From an uncultured Opitutia bacterium (GTDB lineage: Bacteria; Verrucomicrobiota; Verrucomicrobiia; Opitutales; Opitutaceae): a DNA stretch of 64,000 nucleotides. This document shows positions 54,518 to 64,000 of this stretch, one piece after another. Made by a program: the position numbers and the translations under genes. Under the pieces are notes generated by a model. That model worked only from the letters and a program-made list of their open reading frames with translations. It ran no database searches and had not been told where the DNA came from. Where the stretch lies: the NCBI GenBank assembly GCA_903862955.1, contig CAIPAH010000023.1, forward strand, positions 124,001 through 188,000, in the 5' to 3' direction. Within the stretch, counting starts at the first letter, position 1. Every line of letters begins with the position of its first letter.

Positions 54518-55171
54518 ATGTCGAACATTTTTCCCAAGTCGGCGAACAAGCTTCCGCTCCAGATCATCGTGTATCTGGTGGTGCTCAGCGGGATCCTGAC
54601 GGCAGGCGCCACTTATTACATGACGCCGAAATACACGCGCGTCGGTTACGCCCCGGTGCAGCCCGTGCCCTACAGCCACGCGCTTCACGCCGGCCAGCTC
54701 GGGATCGACTGCCGTTACTGCCACAGCAACGTCGAAACGTCAGGCGTCGCCAACCTGCCCACGGCCCAGACGTGCATGAATTGCCACAACCAGGTGAAGA
54801 AGGACAGCCCCCTGCTCGCGGTCGTGCGCCACAGCTTTGAGACCGGGGAGTCGGTCCCGTGGGTCAAGATCCACCAGACACCCGATTACGTCTACTTCAA
54901 CCACGCCATCCACGTGAACCGCGGCGTCAGCTGCTGGGAGTGCCACGGCCAGATCAACGAGATGGAGGTCGTCGCCCACGACAAGCCCCTGAGCATGGGT
55001 TTCTGCCTCGATTGCCATCGCGATCCCGCCCCGCACCTGCGCCCCCGCGACCAGGTGACGAATCTGGACTGGCGCCCCGCCAACGCCACCGAAGCCCGCA
55101 CGCAGGGCGACAAGTTTGTGCACGACTGGAACATCAAACCTCCGCAAAGCTGCTCCGGTTGCCATCGATGA
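54518..55171 (+). CDS. actA: Alternative complex III subunit ActA, pentahaem cytochrome c
   Basis: A 217-residue protein with one N-terminal membrane anchor (LQIIVYLVVLSGILTAG) and five CXXCH haem c sites at 65-69, 86-90, 139-143, 163-167 and 212-216. Five haems and this length match ActA of ACIII, the quinol:electron-acceptor oxidoreductase that replaces the bc1 complex. It passes electrons on the periplasmic side. The gene order actA-B-C-D-E-F follows without gaps, and the actB start overlaps the actA stop by four bases. Confidence 0.94.
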   Translation: MSNIFPKSANKLPLQIIVYLVVLSGILTAGATYYMTPKYTRVGYAPVQPVPYSHALHAGQLGIDCRYCHSNVETSGVANLPTAQTCMNCHNQVKKDSPLLAVVRHSFETGESVPWVKIHQTPDYVYFNHAIHVNRGVSCWECHGQINEMEVVAHDKPLSMGFCLDCHRDPAPHLRPRDQVTNLDWRPANATEARTQGDKFVHDWNIKPPQSCSGCHR

Positions 55172-58100
55172 AACGCAAATTTCACCATCCTGAAGCTTCC
55201 GAACGCGAACTCGCCGGTCCGAAATACTGGCGCAGCCTCGATGAGCTTGCCGCCACGCCGGGCTTCAAGGCGCAGCTGGCGCGTGAATTTCCGGAGGGTT
55301 CCTCCTCGCTCGAAGGCGTCGACCGCCGCCAGTTCACCAAGATCATGGCCGCCTCGTTCGCGCTCGGCGGTCTCGGTCTCGCCGGCTGCCGCCGGCCCGA
55401 GCAGTTCGTGCTGCCGTTCGGCAAGTCGGTCGAGGGTGTGATTCCCGGCCTGCCCCTGTATTTCGCGACGGCCATGCCGCGTCGCAATTCCGCGATCCCG
55501 CTGCTCGCCGAAACCCACCAGGGCCGCCCGACCAAGCTTGAGGGCAATCCGACCTACCAGCCGCACGGCGGCGCCAGCTCGCTGGTCGCCCAGGCGTCGG
55601 TGCTCGACCTCTACGATCCGGACCGCGCGACGAAGCACACGATCAAGGGTGTGGACGCGACCTCCGCTCAGGTTGCCGAGGTCCTTGCCGGTATCGGTAA
55701 GGCTGCCTCCGCCAACGGCGGGGAGGGGCTCGCGTTTCTCGCCGAGGAATCGGGTTCACCCACGCGCGCCCGCCTGCTGGGCCGGCTGCGCCAGAAGTTT
55801 CCCCGCGCCATCTGGGCGGAATACGAGCCGGTGCAGGACGAGCCGCCGGCCGCCGCCGCGCGCGCCGCGTTCGGCCGCGACGTCAAGCCACTCTACCGCT
55901 TTGCCGCCGCCAAGCGCATCGTAAGCTTGGACGCCGATTTCTTCCACGCCGAGGCCGGCAGTCTCTATTATGCGCGGGAGTTTGCGAAGGGTCGCCGCGT
56001 CAAGGAGCGGACCGACGCGATGAACCGTCTTTATGTGATCGAGAGCGGGCTCTCGCTCACCGGCAGCATGGCCGACCACCGCCTGCGCCTCGCCAGCAGC
56101 CACATGGCGGCCTTCGCCGCCGCGCTCGCCTCCAAGGTCATGGGCTCGTCCGCGCTGGACAGCCTCGCCCAGGGACTTTCGTTCAAGGACCAGGAAAAAT
56201 GGCTCACCGCCTGTGCGGAGGACCTGCTGGCCCACAAGGGCGCCTGCGTCGTCGTCGCCGGTGCGCATCAGCCGGCCGCGGTCCACGCGATCGCCTACGC
56301 GCTGAATTCCTTCCTCGGCAACGTCGGCACGACGGTGGACTTCGTGGAAGTCGCCGCCAACGGCGCTTCCAGCATCGCCGGCCTCGCCACCGCCATTTCG
56401 GGCGGCTCGGTCAAGACCCTCATCGTCCTCGGCGGCAACCCGGCTTACAACGCGCCGGCCGATCTCGACTGGAGCAAGCTGCAGTCGTCCGTCCCCGAGG
56501 TGATCCGCGTCGGTTACTATGCCGACGAGACCTCCGCCCTGGCGCACACTCACATCGCGAGCACGCACTATCTCGAGTCGTGGGGCGACGCCCGCACGGT
56601 GGACGGCACGATCGTCCCGGTGCAGCCGATGATCCTCCCGCTGTTCAACGGCCTGACGGAGATCGAGGTGCTCAGCCACGTGCTCGGCGAGGAGAAGACC
56701 GACCCGTATTCCCAGGTTTACACCACCATCACGGGACTCGCGAAGGGTGAGGACGCGGAAAAGACGTTCCGCCAGTTCCTCTACGACGGCCTGCTCAAGG
56801 GTTCCGAGTATCCGACCGTGGCGGTCCGCTTCGATCTCAACGGCGCTGGCGCCCTGTTTGCCTCGCCGCCCAAGGTCGAACAACTCTCCCTCCAGAATCT
56901 CGAGGTCCGCTTCGTCACCGACCACAAGATGGACGACGGCCGCTTCGCCAACAATGGCTGGCTGCAGGAGTGCCCGGACCCGATCACGAAGATTTCCTGG
57001 GACAACGCGATCCTCGTCAGCCCGAAGCTGGGCAAGGAACTCGGCATCGACCCGAAGGGCTCGACGCTGCAGGTCGCGCGCGTCGAGGAAAACGAGTTTG
57101 AGATCGGCAAGGAGAATTCCCGCGTGTTCGAGGTCACCGTCGGTGGCCGCAAGATCCGCGGCCCGGTCCACATCCAGCCCGGCCTCTCGAATTACACGCT
57201 CGTCATCGCCCTCGGCTACGGCCGCACCGCCACGGGGCACGTCGGCACCGGCGCGGGCTTCAGCGCCTATCCGCTGCGGACGACGACCACGATGGCCTTC
57301 GCCACCGGCGCAAAGCTGACCGACACCGGCACCCGCACGCTGCTCGCCAACGTCCAGGAGCACTGGTCGATGGAAGGCCGCGACCTCGTGCGCGAGGCCA
57401 ACCTCGACGAAGTCCAGAAGGACGGCGGTCCCGGTCTCGCCTACGTCAAGGGCATCGGCATGGAGTCGCACAGCCCGTCCGTCCTCGGTGAGGTCGGCAC
57501 GGCGATGACGCCGGCGGAGCGCGCCAAGGAAATTCCCCGTGGCGGTTCGCTTTACTCGACGCCCAAGTTCGACGGCCTCCACCAGTGGGGCATGTCGATC
57601 GACCTCAACACCTGCATCGGCTGCAACGCTTGCGTCGTCGCCTGCCAGGCCGAGAACAACGTCCCGATCGTCGGCAAGGACCAGGTCCTCCGCGGCCGCG
57701 AGATGCACTGGATCCGCCTCGACCGCTACTATTCCGACGGCCGAGCCGACGCGGCGGCCTTCGGCGGCGAGGGCAACCACGAGTTGCCCGAGGATCCCCA
57801 GATTTCCCTGCAGCCCGTCGCCTGCCAGCAATGCGAGCTGGCCCCGTGCGAGACCGTGTGCCCCGTCAACGCCACCGTGCATGACGACGAAGGCATCAAC
57901 ACGATGGCGTATAACCGCTGCATCGGCACCCGCTATTGCGCGAACAACTGCCCGTACAAGGTCAGGCGCTTCAACTTCTTCGACTTCAACCAGCGCCAGC
58001 TTGACAGCCTCTACCTCAGCCAGCTCGGCCCGAAGGGCATGCCGGAGCTCGTGCAGATGGTGAAGAATCCCGAGGTCACCGTCCGCATGCGCGGCGTGAT

Positions 58101-58556
58101 GGAGAAGTGCACGTATTGCGTGCAGCGCATCCAGAACGGCAAGATCGAGCACAAGGTTGAGGTCATGAAGAAGAACAACGGCGCCGCGGTCTCGACCGAC
58201 GAGCTCAGCGTCCCGGATGGCACCATCAAGACGGCCTGCCAGCAGGTCTGCCCGGTGGAGGCCATCGTGTTCGGCAACATCCTCGACGCGACCAGCGAGG
58301 TTTCGAAGGCCAAGGCACACGCCCAGGACTACGCGCTGCTCGGCTACCTCAACATCCGCCCGCGCACCACCTACCTCGGCAAGCTCCGCAATCCGAACCC
58401 GTCGATGCCCGACTACGCCGCGATTTCGATCCCGTACAGCCGCAAGGAATACAACCTCAAGAATCATCCCGCCGGTCACCACCCCGAGCATGAGGAAACG
58501 AAGGAACCCGGCCACGCCATGCTCAACGCGGTTAAAACCATCGGAGGGCTCAGCTA

Positions 58557-58557
<1 letters not shown>
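55168..58557 (+). CDS. actB: Alternative complex III subunit ActB, iron-sulfur/molybdopterin-like protein
   Basis: 1129 residues from ATG 55168, in ATGA overlap with actA; the frame is open further upstream inside actA. A Tat-type signal [19 protein letters not shown] ends in LAGC (Cys74), which also looks like a lipobox. The large middle part resembles molybdopterin oxidoreductases without a visible cofactor-binding cluster. The last third is a ferredoxin-like subunit: [12 protein letters not shown] (from 816), [15 protein letters not shown] (from 886), [21 protein letters not shown] (from 981) and CQQVCPVEA (from 1024), enough for four clusters. It transfers electrons from the quinol-side ActC to the cytochromes. 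Confidence 0.94.
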
Positions 58558-60005
<1,448 letters not shown>

Positions 60006-60017
60006 TCTCACCCGACC

Positions 60018-60551
60018 ATGGCTGCTCCATCCTATGGCCTGATCGCCACCTTCGACACCGCGCCGGAAATCTACCACGCGGCGGCGCAGGTGCGTGACGC
60101 CGGCTACAAGAACTGGGACGTCATTTCCCCGTGCCCGCTGCACGGCCTCGACGCCGCGATGGGCCTCAAGCGCTCGATCGTCCCCCGCATCTCGCTGGCC
60201 GGCGGCATCACAGGTTTCTGCACCGGCATGTCCCTCATCTGGTGGACGGGCGCCTACGACTACAAGCTGACGGTCGGCGGCAAGCCGCTCTTCAGCCCGA
60301 TGTTCGCCTTTCCCGTCTCCTACGAGCTGACGATCCTGTTCACCGCCTTTGCCACCATTATCGGCATGTTCATCGTCAACGGCCTGCCGCGGCACCACCA
60401 CCCGGTCCTGAAATACGACCAGATCAAGCGCGGCCTGGACGACCGGTTCTTCATCGTCATCGAGGCGCGCGACCCGCGCTTCAACCTCGCCAACACGTCC
60501 GCCCTGCTCGCGAAGCTCGGCGGCACGGGCATCAAGGAGCTGGAAGCCTGA
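60018..60551 (+). CDS. actD: Alternative complex III subunit ActD
   Basis: A 177-residue DUF3341-type protein: N-terminal soluble part (GLIATFDTAPEIYHAAAQVR, YKNWDVISPCPLHGLDAAMG), then two membrane helices (PRISLAGGITGFCTGMSLIW; FPVSYELTILFTAFATIIGM), then GLPRHHHPVLKYD and a short soluble tail (DDRFFIVIEARDPRF). It is a peripheral stabilising subunit of ACIII with no cofactor motif. Position between actC and actE is standard. Confidence 0.92.
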   Translation: MAAPSYGLIATFDTAPEIYHAAAQVRDAGYKNWDVISPCPLHGLDAAMGLKRSIVPRISLAGGITGFCTGMSLIWWTGAYDYKLTVGGKPLFSPMFAFPVSYELTILFTAFATIIGMFIVNGLPRHHHPVLKYDQIKRGLDDRFFIVIEARDPRFNLANTSALLAKLGGTGIKELEA

Positions 60552-60554
60552 CCC

Positions 60555-61193
60555 ATGCGCAACGTCTACCTAGTCACAGCGTTCGTCGTGGTGCTCGCGG
60601 TCTCCATCCTGGGTTTCCGCGGGACGAAATTCACCCAGCCGCCGATGGACGTATTCCCCGAGTGGGCCTTCCCCGGCATGAAGCGCCAGCCCAAGCCGCG
60701 TCCGCAGGGCGAGAGCAATTTCTTCGCAGACGGCCGCGCCGACCGCCCGCTACCCGCGGGGGTCGTGTCGCGCAACCCGCTGCGCAATGACGACGCGCTC
60801 TACGCCGGCAAGGCCGCCGACGGCTCGTGGGTGCGCGGTTTCCCGGTTTCCGTGGACGCTACGCGCATGGCGCGCGGCAAGGAACGCTACACGATTTATT
60901 GCTCGCCCTGCCACGGTGCGGTCGGCGACGGCAACGGCATCACGAAGCAGTATGGCATGGGCGCGACGCCCACCTACCACGACGACCGCCTGCGCAAGAT
61001 GGCCGAGGGGGAGATTTTCAACACGATCACGCACGGTTCGCCCAACAAGAACATGCAGTCCTACGCCGACAAACTCTTCCCCGAGGACCGCTGGGCCGTG
61101 ATCCTTTACGTCCGCGCCCTGCAGCGCGCGCAAACCGGCACGACGGCGGATGTCACCACCGACGCCGGTAAACAAGCCCTTGGCCTGAAATGA
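60555..61193 (+). CDS. actE: Alternative complex III subunit ActE, monohaem cytochrome c
   Basis: A 212-residue protein with one N-terminal helix (VYLVTAFVVVLAVSILGF) and a single haem site CSPCH at 116-120, followed by a typical class I cytochrome c fold with downstream Met residues as candidate axial ligand. Many ActE proteins carry a lipobox Cys after the signal; none is present here, so it is probably anchored by the uncleaved helix. It would receive electrons from ActA and pass them to a terminal oxidase. Confidence 0.93.
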   Translation: MRNVYLVTAFVVVLAVSILGFRGTKFTQPPMDVFPEWAFPGMKRQPKPRPQGESNFFADGRADRPLPAGVVSRNPLRNDDALYAGKAADGSWVRGFPVSVDATRMARGKERYTIYCSPCHGAVGDGNGITKQYGMGATPTYHDDRLRKMAEGEIFNTITHGSPNKNMQSYADKLFPEDRWAVILYVRALQRAQTGTTADVTTDAGKQALGLK

Positions 61194-62464
61194 GCACCCA
61201 CGCCGCCACCGTTCCCGCCGCGCTGCCTACCGCGGCCTCGACCGCCGCCACGGCCGGCAAGGCCCTCACCGTCGGCCTCATCGGCCTCGCCGCCACCTTG
61301 CTCGCCGCGCTGTTCGCCCCGGAGAAGCACGGCGTCGCGTTGTCCTATCTCGTCGGCGTCAGCTACTGGACCGCCATCGCCATCGGCATGCTGCTGATGA
61401 TCCTGATTCATCACATCACCGATGCCTCCTGGTCCGTCGTCATTCGCCGGCAATGGGAACACGGCCTCGCCGCCTTCAAGTGGCTCTTCGTTCTCTTCCT
61501 CCCGCTGCTCATCCTCGCGTGGGCCGTGCCCGGCTTCGTCTGGCCCTGGATGGACAAGACCCACGTCCTGCACGGGCACGGCACGGTTGGCACCGACATA
61601 CTTTACCTGAAGAAAGAGGGCTTCCTGAACATCTACACGTTCACGATCATGACCCTGGTGTTCTTTGGCTCCTGGGTGTGGCTCTCCGCCCGCCTGCGCC
61701 GGGCGTCGTTCACGCAGGACACCGACGGCAATGCCGCTTGGACGTTCAAGAATCGCGTCACCTCCGCCATGGGCCTGCCCATCGCGGCGCTGACGCTCAC
61801 GTTCGCCGCCATCTACTGGATCAAGAGCCTGGAGTATCACTGGTTCTCGACGATGTATGGCGTGTGGTTCTTCGCCAACTGCGCACGCGGCGCCCTCTGC
61901 TGCGGCGTGCTGATCATGGTCTGGCTGCTCCACCGCGGCGACTACAAGGGCATCCTCAACACGAACCATTTCCACAGCATCGGCATGCTGATGCTGGCCT
62001 TCACCGTGTTCTGGGCCTATGTGACGTTCTCCCAGTATTTCCTGATCTGGAACGCCAATGTCCCCGAGGAAACCTTCTGGTATAACCTCCGTGAGTTGAA
62101 CCACGACGGCACCACCAACCAGTGGTGGTATGTCGGCCTTGTCATCCTCTTCGGCCACTTCGTCATCCCGTTCTGCGCGCTGCTGTCCTACCGCTTCAAG
62201 GTCACGCCGCACATCATCCGCCGCATCGCCTACTGGGTGCTCACGATCATCCTGATCGACATCTGCTACAACGTGCTCCCGGCCCTGAAGGATGAGCACG
62301 GTGACTCGCTCCCGTTCCTCTCCATCAACCTGCTCTGGGTGCTGACTTCGGTGATCGGCGTCGGCGGCATCTGCATCTGGGCGTATCTCCGCAGTTTCCC
62401 GACCACCAAGCTCATCCCGATCCGCGACCCGCGCATTGGCGAGTGCCTGACCCACCATGAGTGA
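61190..62464 (+). CDS. actF: Alternative complex III subunit ActF
   Basis: A 424-residue membrane protein with about ten helices, the last core subunit of ACIII. Recognisable blocks are VGVSYWTAIAIGMLLMILIH, WPWMDKTHVLHGH, FWAYVTFSQYFLIWNANVPE and TNQWWYVGLVILFGHFVIPF. It is related to NrfD/ActC in fold but lacks quinol-site residues in the family. The start overlaps the actE stop by four bases (61190-61193). Confidence 0.93.
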   Translation: MSTHAATVPAALPTAASTAATAGKALTVGLIGLAATLLAALFAPEKHGVALSYLVGVSYWTAIAIGMLLMILIHHITDASWSVVIRRQWEHGLAAFKWLFVLFLPLLILAWAVPGFVWPWMDKTHVLHGHGTVGTDILYLKKEGFLNIYTFTIMTLVFFGSWVWLSARLRRASFTQDTDGNAAWTFKNRVTSAMGLPIAALTLTFAAIYWIKSLEYHWFSTMYGVWFFANCARGALCCGVLIMVWLLHRGDYKGILNTNHFHSIGMLMLAFTVFWAYVTFSQYFLIWNANVPEETFWYNLRELNHDGTTNQWWYVGLVILFGHFVIPFCALLSYRFKVTPHIIRRIAYWVLTIILIDICYNVLPALKDEHGDSLPFLSINLLWVLTSVIGVGGICIWAYLRSFPTTKLIPIRDPRIGECLTHHE

Positions 62465-62753
62465 CACGCCTTCCCGCTCCACTCCGCTCGTGACCATCCT
62501 GACCGTGCTGGCGGGCTTCGCCCTGTTCGCGGTCGTGGTTTACTATGCGTATCTGCCGAGCCAGACCGGGGCCTACACCGCTGACGGCATCCACACGGCG
62601 GAGCAGCGCCACAAGAATCTCACCGAACTCCGCGCCAAGCAGGCCAAGCAGGCCGCGAGCTACGCGTGGGTTGACCAGAAAAATGGCGTCGTGCAGCTCC
62701 CGCTCGACGTGGCCATGGAGTTCACCGTGCAGAAATACGCGGCCAAGAAATAA
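62457..62753 (+). CDS. Small ACIII-associated membrane protein
   Basis: A 98-residue protein overlapping the actF end by eight bases. One helix (LVTILTVLAGFALFAVVVYY), then an extracytoplasmic stretch with YAWVDQKNGVVQLPLDVAM, a pattern common in small proteins encoded next to ACIII and cytochrome oxidase genes. No cofactor motif. Probably an accessory subunit or assembly factor; the exact role is unknown. Confidence 0.75.
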   Translation: MSDTPSRSTPLVTILTVLAGFALFAVVVYYAYLPSQTGAYTADGIHTAEQRHKNLTELRAKQAKQAASYAWVDQKNGVVQLPLDVAMEFTVQKYAAKK

Positions 62754-62776: not shown

Positions 62777-64000
62777 ATGACCACTGTCCCCCCAGCCGCC
62801 GAGACGGCCGAAGTCACCGAGATCGACAGCTCCGCGCGTTGCTCGCTGCTTCTGCTGCTGACCTGCGCCGCCCTCTGGCTGGTTCTCAGCGGCGTGCTCG
62901 CCGTGGTGAACCTCGTGCAGCTCACGACGCCGACCTTTCTCGCCGACTGCCCGATCTTCACCTACGGCCGCTCCTCGGCCCTGCAGCAGTCGATCTTCGT
63001 CTACGGCTGGGCCGCCAACTCCGGCCTCGCCGTCGCGCTGTGGATCCTCGCCCGCCTCGGCGGTGAGCCGCTCCGCTCGCTTAACTGGCTCAAGGCTGGC
63101 ACCGTTTTCTGGAACATCGCCCTCGTGGTCGGCTTGGTCGGCATCGCCTCGGGCGATGGCACCTCGAACGCCTGGCTGCATCTCCCGCGCTACGTGCTGC
63201 CCGTGATGGTGGTCGCCTACGGTGTGATCGCGATGCCCGGCGTGCTGGCCTGGACTGGCCGCCGTTCGCCCATGACCTTCGCCGCGCAGTGGTATGCCGT
63301 CGCCGCGCTGTTTCTCTTCCCTTGGCTCTTCTCGGCCGCGCAGATGATGCTCGTCTTTGCCCCCGAGCGCGGCGTGCTGCAGGCGCTCGTCGCCGGCTGG
63401 TTTGTGCAGGGCGCGTGGACGCTCTGGCTCGCGCCGCTCGCGCTGGCCCCGGCCTATTATCTGGTGCCCAAGATCACCGGCCGGATCATCCCGAGCTATG
63501 ACTTTGCCTCGCTCAGCTTCTGGACGCTACTCTTCGTCGGCGCCTGGACGGGTGGGCGCCACCTGATTGGCGGGCCGGTGCCGGCGTGGATCGCGACCAT
63601 CGCGGTTGTCTCCTGCGCGCTGCTGCTTTTCCACTACATCGTGGTGGGCGTGAACCTGCGCGCGGCCTTTTCCGCCAACGGCAGCACCGTCCTGCGTTTC
63701 GTGGCGTTCGGCCTCGGGGCCTACGTGCTGGGCGGCTTCATCGATGCGGCCACCGCGATGCGCAGCGTCGCCGTCGTCACGCAGTTCACCCACTTCAGCA
63801 CCGCCCAGTCGCAGCTCGCGCTCAACGGCGCCTTCTCGATGGTGGTCTTCGGCGCCATCTACTTCCTCGGCCCGCGTATCACGGGCCGCGCCTGGCCGTC
63901 GCTCGGACTGATTCGTGCGCACTACGCCGCCGCCGTGATTGGCGTGACCGGCCTCGTGCTCGCGCTCTTCGGTGCCGGCTGGGTGCAGGGGCATGACCTC
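62777..64000 (+). CDS. CcoN-like membrane protein lacking haem-copper ligands, 3'-truncated by window edge
   Basis: 408 codons from ATG 62777 to the window end, open throughout. It has about ten hydrophobic helices and follows the cbb3 oxidase subunit I (CcoN) scaffold: FTYGRSSALQQSIFVYG, AYYLVPKITGRIIPSYD, SLSFWTLLFVGAWTG and MVVFGAIYFLGPRITGR are in CcoN order and spacing. The metal ligands are missing: Gln70 replaces the low-spin haem His of RPLHT, Gln211 the first CuB His (WWYGHNAVG), Arg261-His262 the CuB His pair, Gly255 the Tyr, and AQSQ (343-346) the GHxH haem pair. It cannot bind haem or copper in the usual way; function unknown, perhaps a structural partner of ACIII. Confidence 0.72.
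   Translation, partial: MTTVPPAAETAEVTEIDSSARCSLLLLLTCAALWLVLSGVLAVVNLVQLTTPTFLADCPIFTYGRSSALQQSIFVYGWAANSGLAVALWILARLGGEPLRSLNWLKAGTVFWNIALVVGLVGIASGDGTSNAWLHLPRYVLPVMVVAYGVIAMPGVLAWTGRRSPMTFAAQWYAVAALFLFPWLFSAAQMMLVFAPERGVLQALVAGWFVQGAWTLWLAPLALAPAYYLVPKITGRIIPSYDFASLSFWTLLFVGAWTGGRHLIGGPVPAWIATIAVVSCALLLFHYIVVGVNLRAAFSANGSTVLRFVAFGLGAYVLGGFIDAATAMRSVAVVTQFTHFSTAQSQLALNGAFSMVVFGAIYFLGPRITGRAWPSLGLIRAHYAAAVIGVTGLVLALFGAGWVQGHDL

Follow-up and report, generated by a model that had tools for sequence, protein, structure and literature searches.

A CcoN homologue without haem and copper ligands in verrucomicrobial ACIII operons, a putative membrane scaffold for c-type cytochromes

We found that the ACIII operon of an uncultured Opitutia bacterium carries a gene for a homologue of CcoN, subunit I of the cbb3 oxidases, whose haem and copper ligands are gone. 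This gene, here N*, occupies positions 62777-64000 of the + strand of the window (the whole 64,000-nucleotide stretch of DNA that was analysed). Its frame, which covers residues 1-408 of 473, is still open at the window end, and the full gene was read on the contig beyond it (L005:777-2198, which is G000:C23:186777-188198). That the ligands are lost is firm. From gene order and conservation among relatives, we consider it somewhat probable that N* serves as a cofactor-free membrane scaffold, which would hold the c-type haems of two partner subunits, O and C, and bridge ACIII to another oxidase.

Aligned by phmmer with the CcoN structure 3mk7_A, N* has Gln70 in place of His60, Gln211 of His207, Gly255 of Tyr251, Arg261 of His257, Gln344 of His345 and Gln346 of His347, while His262 matches His258; five of the six ligand histidines and the active-site tyrosine are replaced, and His262 alone is retained. 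We take these positions to be the haem b, CuB, tyrosine and haem b3 sites, an assignment that fits the CcoN of the same genome, which has H, H, Y, HH and HxH at the corresponding places. All the changes named in an earlier, sequence-only reading of the window proved right when the full-length gene was aligned to the structure: His262 apart, no ligand histidines were found at the aligned sites, and no family outside the haem-copper oxidases came closer among the matches. The NorB-type histidine ligands of the haems and FeB are likewise missing at the aligned positions. A misalignment of the ligands was considered and rejected, as phmmer, two MAFFT alignments with the genome's own CcoN and the conservation of the skeleton all concur. 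N* scores 116.6 bits on PF00115 (COX1; cut-off 34.8) and fails the NCBIfam ccoN equivalog with 88.5 bits against a cut-off of 583.15, on which the genome's own CcoNO reaches 653 bits. The act-linked N of the genomes G120 (intact) and G249 also fall below this cut-off, at 253 and 245 bits, so that the cut-off is no test of ligands.

The predicted fold remains that of CcoN. An AlphaFold2 model of the relative L059, which is 78% identical to N*, was built from a 32-row alignment (pLDDT 89.7) and contains 12 long helices; its best matches among solved structures are CcoN (3mk7: Z 49.5, rmsd 1.7 A over 438 residues, TM 0.87 in Foldseek), with NorB lower at Z 42.3 and 40.5. Together with the PF00115 match, this bears out the earlier view of a helix scaffold like that of cbb3 subunit I, and, judging from the modelled relative, N* is a protein that keeps the CcoN membrane fold.

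N* had been described as lying directly after ACIII. A complete act operon does precede it on the + strand, but a 98-aa open reading frame (62457-62753) separates actF from N*. The operon begins with ActA, a pentahaem cytochrome c (54518-55171; Pfam Cytochrome_C7/CIII, five CxxCH), followed by the iron-sulfur subunit ActB (55168-58557; Pfam Fer4 domains; we chose as its start an ATG inside a longer GTG frame), the NrfD-like membrane subunit ActC (58557-60005; Pfam NrfD, 79.9 bits), ActD (60018-60551; Pfam ActD, 209 bits), the monohaem cytochrome c ActE (60555-61193; Pfam Cytochrome_CBB3/Cytochrom_C, one CxxCH) and the second NrfD-like membrane subunit ActF (61190-62464), which had no match in the Pfam search and was recognised by PDB 6f0k chain F (E 1.1e-51). 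Pfam, the ActF structures and the haem motifs thus place N* in an ACIII operon, whose neighbouring genes overlap or almost abut, with 23 bases between N* and the gene before it. The 98-aa frame has one hydrophobic N-terminal stretch and no match in Pfam or NCBIfam, is present between actF and N in many relatives, and is possibly a small ACIII subunit. A look at the downstream genes for CcoO and CcoP found, outside the window, the CcoO-like O (L005:2195-2824; FixO 36.5 bits, cut-off 29.6; one CxxCH) and C, a monohaem cytochrome c (L005:2821-3486; one CxxCH), which complete a conserved run actABCDEF-orf98-N-O-C. A terminator-like hairpin lies behind them at L005:3506-3530, from a scan that is weak as evidence (4 sites against 2.5 expected).

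The loss of ligands extends well beyond this genome. The best 80 of 411 relatives in a scan of contigs are titled Verrucomicrobia or Opitutae-type bacteria. Of the 120 genomes in the taxonomic family, 111 match at E 1e-10 or better, although for a few of them the match may be another CcoN, and across the phylum 122 of 387 genomes match the alignment at 1e-60, the weakest including other oxidases. We read 170 N loci and set aside three (L176, L177, L178) that are other, intact oxidases. The remaining 167 divide into 143 ligand-less loci and 24 with all seven residues (HHYHHHH), a pattern by which the intact set, including its tyrosine, is defined. Since some genomes were entered twice, these loci represent 121 distinct ligand-less and 23 distinct intact sequences. 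None of the 143 ligand-less loci keeps His261 or Tyr255, and none has more than two of the six ligand histidines. The residues that we take to surround the haems, Arg67, Glu132, Glu135, His336 and Arg429, are kept in 24/24 intact loci, whereas ligand-less loci retain Arg67 in 10/142, Glu132 in 14/143, Glu135 in 48/143, His336 in 12/143 and Arg429 in 12/142 cases. The skeleton residues Trp34, Gly64, Trp112, Pro137, Trp172, Trp208, Pro267, Pro269 and Arg367 are present in at least 95% of both forms.

Of 171 rows, 36 share the QQGRHQQ pattern of the window protein, and most members of its clade have that pattern or a close variant. Within this clade Arg261 is invariant (101/101 rows), Gln211 is present in 96/101 and His262 in 89/101, and dereplication at 80% leaves the picture the same (61/61, 56/61 and 53/61 of 61 rows). 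By these alignments, the former CuB site of the clade is rebuilt and conserved, unlike random decay. Such a polar Gln211-Arg261-His262 site could make N* a proton- or ion-conducting subunit that couples electron flow through ACIII to proton movement, and the 12 long helices retained in the predicted relative would suit this role. Other ligand-less lineages, however, carry Ala, Ser, Gln, Asn and other residues at position 261; as the triad is absent from them, no common set of channel residues is seen, and we regard a conducting role as unlikely.

Whether N* might still be a redox enzyme, with other ligands or another cofactor, bears on the lineages that lost less. L154 and L155 (f12) keep both low-spin haem b histidines, so partly loaded forms may exist, and loci of f10 and f14 retain His70. 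Against this, at least one of the two low-spin histidines is gone in 141 of the 143 ligand-less loci, together with most pocket residues, which makes continued redox activity quite improbable; under the scaffold reading, N* would bind neither haem nor copper. The L154/L155 form, in which the active site is lost, is possibly a half-emptied oxidase.

Sequencing error and a pseudogene were ruled out by the family-wide matches, the recurring pattern and a dN/dS (NG86) of 0.068-0.19 in 13 ligand-less pairs of non-identical sequences, which are partly non-independent and in which some values are rough because dS exceeds 1 in several pairs. These values are comparable in range to those of O, C and ActF from the same pairs, and four intact N pairs gave 0.052 to 0.173. 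Long branches in several ligand-less lineages, and one methanotroph genome with no match, would be expected of a gene under relaxed decay and heading to loss; the selection data contradict this, as do the matches in most genomes of the family, the absence of inner stops in the listed rows, and the invariant skeleton with its invariant new arginine, and we consider decay close to excluded. With the ligands and most pocket residues gone from a gene under selection, the earlier suggestion of a selected scaffold without redox chemistry is supported.

On the N tree, as far as the sequences can tell, the redox centre is lost at least three times. A tree of 106 rows needs three changes, two of them forced by starred branches, and a more careful tree of 28 hand-picked rows needs three, all forced, with the caution that two long branches in it (L144 and L053) meet. 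A single origin of ligand loss was rejected on the 28-row tree (AU p 7.8e-07). For the ACIII partners, a tree of 54 rows requires nine changes, all forced; it was made with LG+G4 and a quick search, its root placed manually on L156/L157, from 64 of 94 loci at 80% identity, minus 16 removed by hand and plus 6 chosen, and L160, with no ActB or ActC in reach, was left out. The difference between three and nine changes may stem from long-branch attraction between the emptied N sequences or from operons having exchanged N. L142 and L138 share 61% identity with intact L140 and no more than 45% with any other ligand-less row; L135 is closer to intact L133 (57% identity) than to any ligand-less row; and for L154 and L155 the nearest row besides each other is intact L175. 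Both forms occur within the genus g20 (intact L046, ligand-less L051). When true oxidases were added as outgroup, the earliest branches were intact, although the root split itself is weak; an ACIII-linked C-type oxidase appears to be the ancestral state.

Among the ligand-less loci, 132 extend 1.4 kb or more upstream, and 131 of them have actF there on the same strand (L118 is the exception; 11 further loci are too short for a call), in agreement with the proposed tie to ACIII; 22 of 24 intact loci have it as well. The two intact exceptions are L043 (genome G013), where N is part of a 999-aa open frame preceded, some 7 kb away and on the same strand, by an A-type COX1, and L052 (G110), an intact N-O-C set without act genes in a genome that also has a ligand-less N in its act operon (L053).

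The partners have kept their haem motifs. O has CxxCH in 143/143 ligand-less loci and C in 140 of the 141 where it was found, the miss (L132) being a short frame; L078 and L108 end before C. In C, Met162 is kept throughout (fraction 1.00). O scores far below the cut-off of NCBIfam ccoO (35.1 against 200.65). CcoP is the dihaem partner of cbb3 oxidase, and C, with a single CxxCH, differs from it. At position 143 of O, the presumed axial Met, 85/143 ligand-less loci have Met and 39/143 have His (for example L018, L019 and L034), a substitution that by sequence suggests a lower-potential haem; because the potential of the O haem may then differ, it counts against the scaffold proposal. Some f3 and f10 loci (L144, L145, L164, L165, L167, L168) show an extra C-like cytochrome match between actF and N.

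Outside the Opitutales, a separate oxidase gene often follows the module. In 15 of the 20 ligand-less loci there (L154-L170 and L172-L174), an A-type COX1 in the same orientation begins 1.5 to 2.5 kb after N*; among the five without it, L155 has only 1.3 kb downstream. Seven of these regions, read further, continue with COX3-like genes (Pfam-tested in five) and then COX2 (Pfam-tested in seven), and in the nine regions where COX2 was read it has a CuA motif and no haem motif. COX2 comes before COX1 in one f18 region and also in L171 (f17), whose N is intact; an aa3-type neighbour of this kind can thus accompany an intact N too. Close downstream of the other 123 ligand-less loci, the window's included, no COX1 was found, which speaks against the scaffold reading; 66 of these have at least 4 kb downstream and about half end early. 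The earlier proposal offered docking, proton-channel and quinone-binding roles, and docking fits best, because O and C keep their haem motifs and the aa3-type COX1 follows in these 15 loci; the conserved Arg261-Gln211 would still allow a proton path.

The window genome has a complete fused CcoNO on another contig, a caa3-type oxidase whose COX2 bears one haem motif besides the CuA motif, and a partial further COX1. Another COX1 was found in all 30 ligand-less genomes checked (G000, five methanotrophs, 23 others and G466; for the methanotrophs G170 and G255 the ligand state was taken from their scores, 49 to 51 bits), and in 16 of the 17 genomes in which an intact N was read, so that this feature separates nothing and lends no statistical support to a link with ligand loss. 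Pseudoenzymes that act in assembly or as decoys are known in general, and N*, with its fold and partners retained and a further COX1 in each genome checked, might be an assembly factor or regulatory decoy for the true oxidases. We think this doubtful, at about the same low level as a remaining redox role: two partners with haem c motifs are kept, N* stays in the ACIII operon, and the true CcoNO of the genome is on another contig. In G120 and G249, of one genus, the act-linked N is the sole COX1-family match, and a search for cytochrome bd gave no hit; the N of G120 (L139) was read as intact, whereas its state in G249 was taken from a score of 262 bits. Intact act-linked forms look like working oxidases, a suggestive reading from gene content.

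Under the scaffold hypothesis, N, O and C most likely began as the genes of an active C-type oxidase, located behind those of ACIII. In several lineages the ligands for haem b, haem b3 and CuB, and the tyrosine with them, disappeared from N, while the fold and the c-haem subunits stayed. N* would then fix the cytochromes O and C against ACIII, a physical association to which gene order alone points, and electrons would pass from menaquinol through ActA/ActE to C and O before reaching a separate acceptor, in most cases an aa3 oxidase; this path and acceptor are suggested by the order of the genes, the conserved haem motifs and the neighbouring aa3 genes. The window ActA has five haem motifs and no sixth. 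In the available text of PMC8552683, a sixth ActA haem completes the path to the oxidase in F. johnsoniae, and an oxidase-borne haem c does so in R. marinus; the O and C haems, held by N*, could fill this role. For the caa3 oxidase of the window genome such a bridge is less needed, since its COX2 has a haem of its own. The widest form of the proposal, to which we give an even chance, is that a respiratory oxidase was repeatedly converted into a frame for electron transfer with no cofactors of its own, that ACIII, the pseudo-oxidase N*-O-C and an aa3 oxidase form one supercomplex in several families of the class, and that the Methylacidiphilum "cbb3" is no oxidase.

Compared with the cbb3 oxidase of 3mk7, the module shares the predicted CcoN fold, a CcoO-like monohaem partner, a third cytochrome gene and the order N-O-C; unlike it, N* is without the full ligands of haem b, b3 and CuB or the tyrosine, sits in an ACIII operon, and has a third subunit with one haem motif where CcoP has two. 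The ACIII-(c)aa3 supercomplexes of R. marinus and F. johnsoniae, as described in the accessible parts of PMC5928083 and PMC8552683, also have oxidase-type genes directly behind act, and c-type haems that make the connection to the oxidase; there, unlike here, the linked protein is not one without catalytic ligands that is followed, in most loci outside the Opitutales, by a separate COX1. Like the NrfD-like ActC and ActF, which the sections available of PMC8076601 present as integral membrane proteins that have no redox cofactors and carry redox subunits, N* would be such a carrier, from another family.

Six f11 genomes carry PmoA and belong to the verrucomicrobial methanotrophs. In the three loci read from them, the patterns (L156 SESSHFV, L157 ADAAHQT, L158 SESSHFV) leave His262 as the sole ligand, and no match to the ccoN profile above 34 bits and no other CcoN was found in the six genomes. 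A cbb3 oxidase beside ACIII has been reported for verrucomicrobial methanotrophs and Opitutaceae, to go by the available portions of PMC8498564 (which cites Refojo et al. 2010 for the gene order), PMC6688271 and PMC11102522, and PMC10205796, in the part open to us, includes cbb3 among the oxidases. Because the genomes examined hold no other CcoN homologue, this published "cbb3 oxidase" is most likely the N*-O-C module in the f11 genomes; what those texts, as far as available, treat as an oxidase keeps only His262 in the three loci here. A search at E 1e-60 found no N in the methanotroph genome G127, where N* thus seems dispensable, a point against the scaffold reading; we infer that G127 is the Pantelleria methanotroph, described without cbb3 in the accessible text of PMC8170126.

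The adjacency of ACIII and N is published; on the emptied centre, the listings and passages of the open literature that we searched gave no report of a ligand-less CcoN beside ACIII. Should the scaffold reading hold, it would mean that a central catalytic protein of respiration can lose its chemistry and survive as a structural part, which would be a route for respiratory supercomplexes to gain subunits. The set of oxidases credited to verrucomicrobial methanotrophs and to many Opitutaceae would need correcting, and counts of cbb3 genes by homology would overstate the capacity for low-oxygen respiration. With intact and emptied forms in close relatives, as in g20, the role of the frame is directly testable.

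In one methanotroph locus (L158, genome G185), actF is separated from the N-O-C genes by an insertion of nosZ, nosL, nosD and a gene for a small cytochrome c; a nos cluster at this place is also described for M. caldifontis IT6 in the available text of PMC11102522; judging from gene order, this insertion may tie N2O reduction to ACIII in G185.
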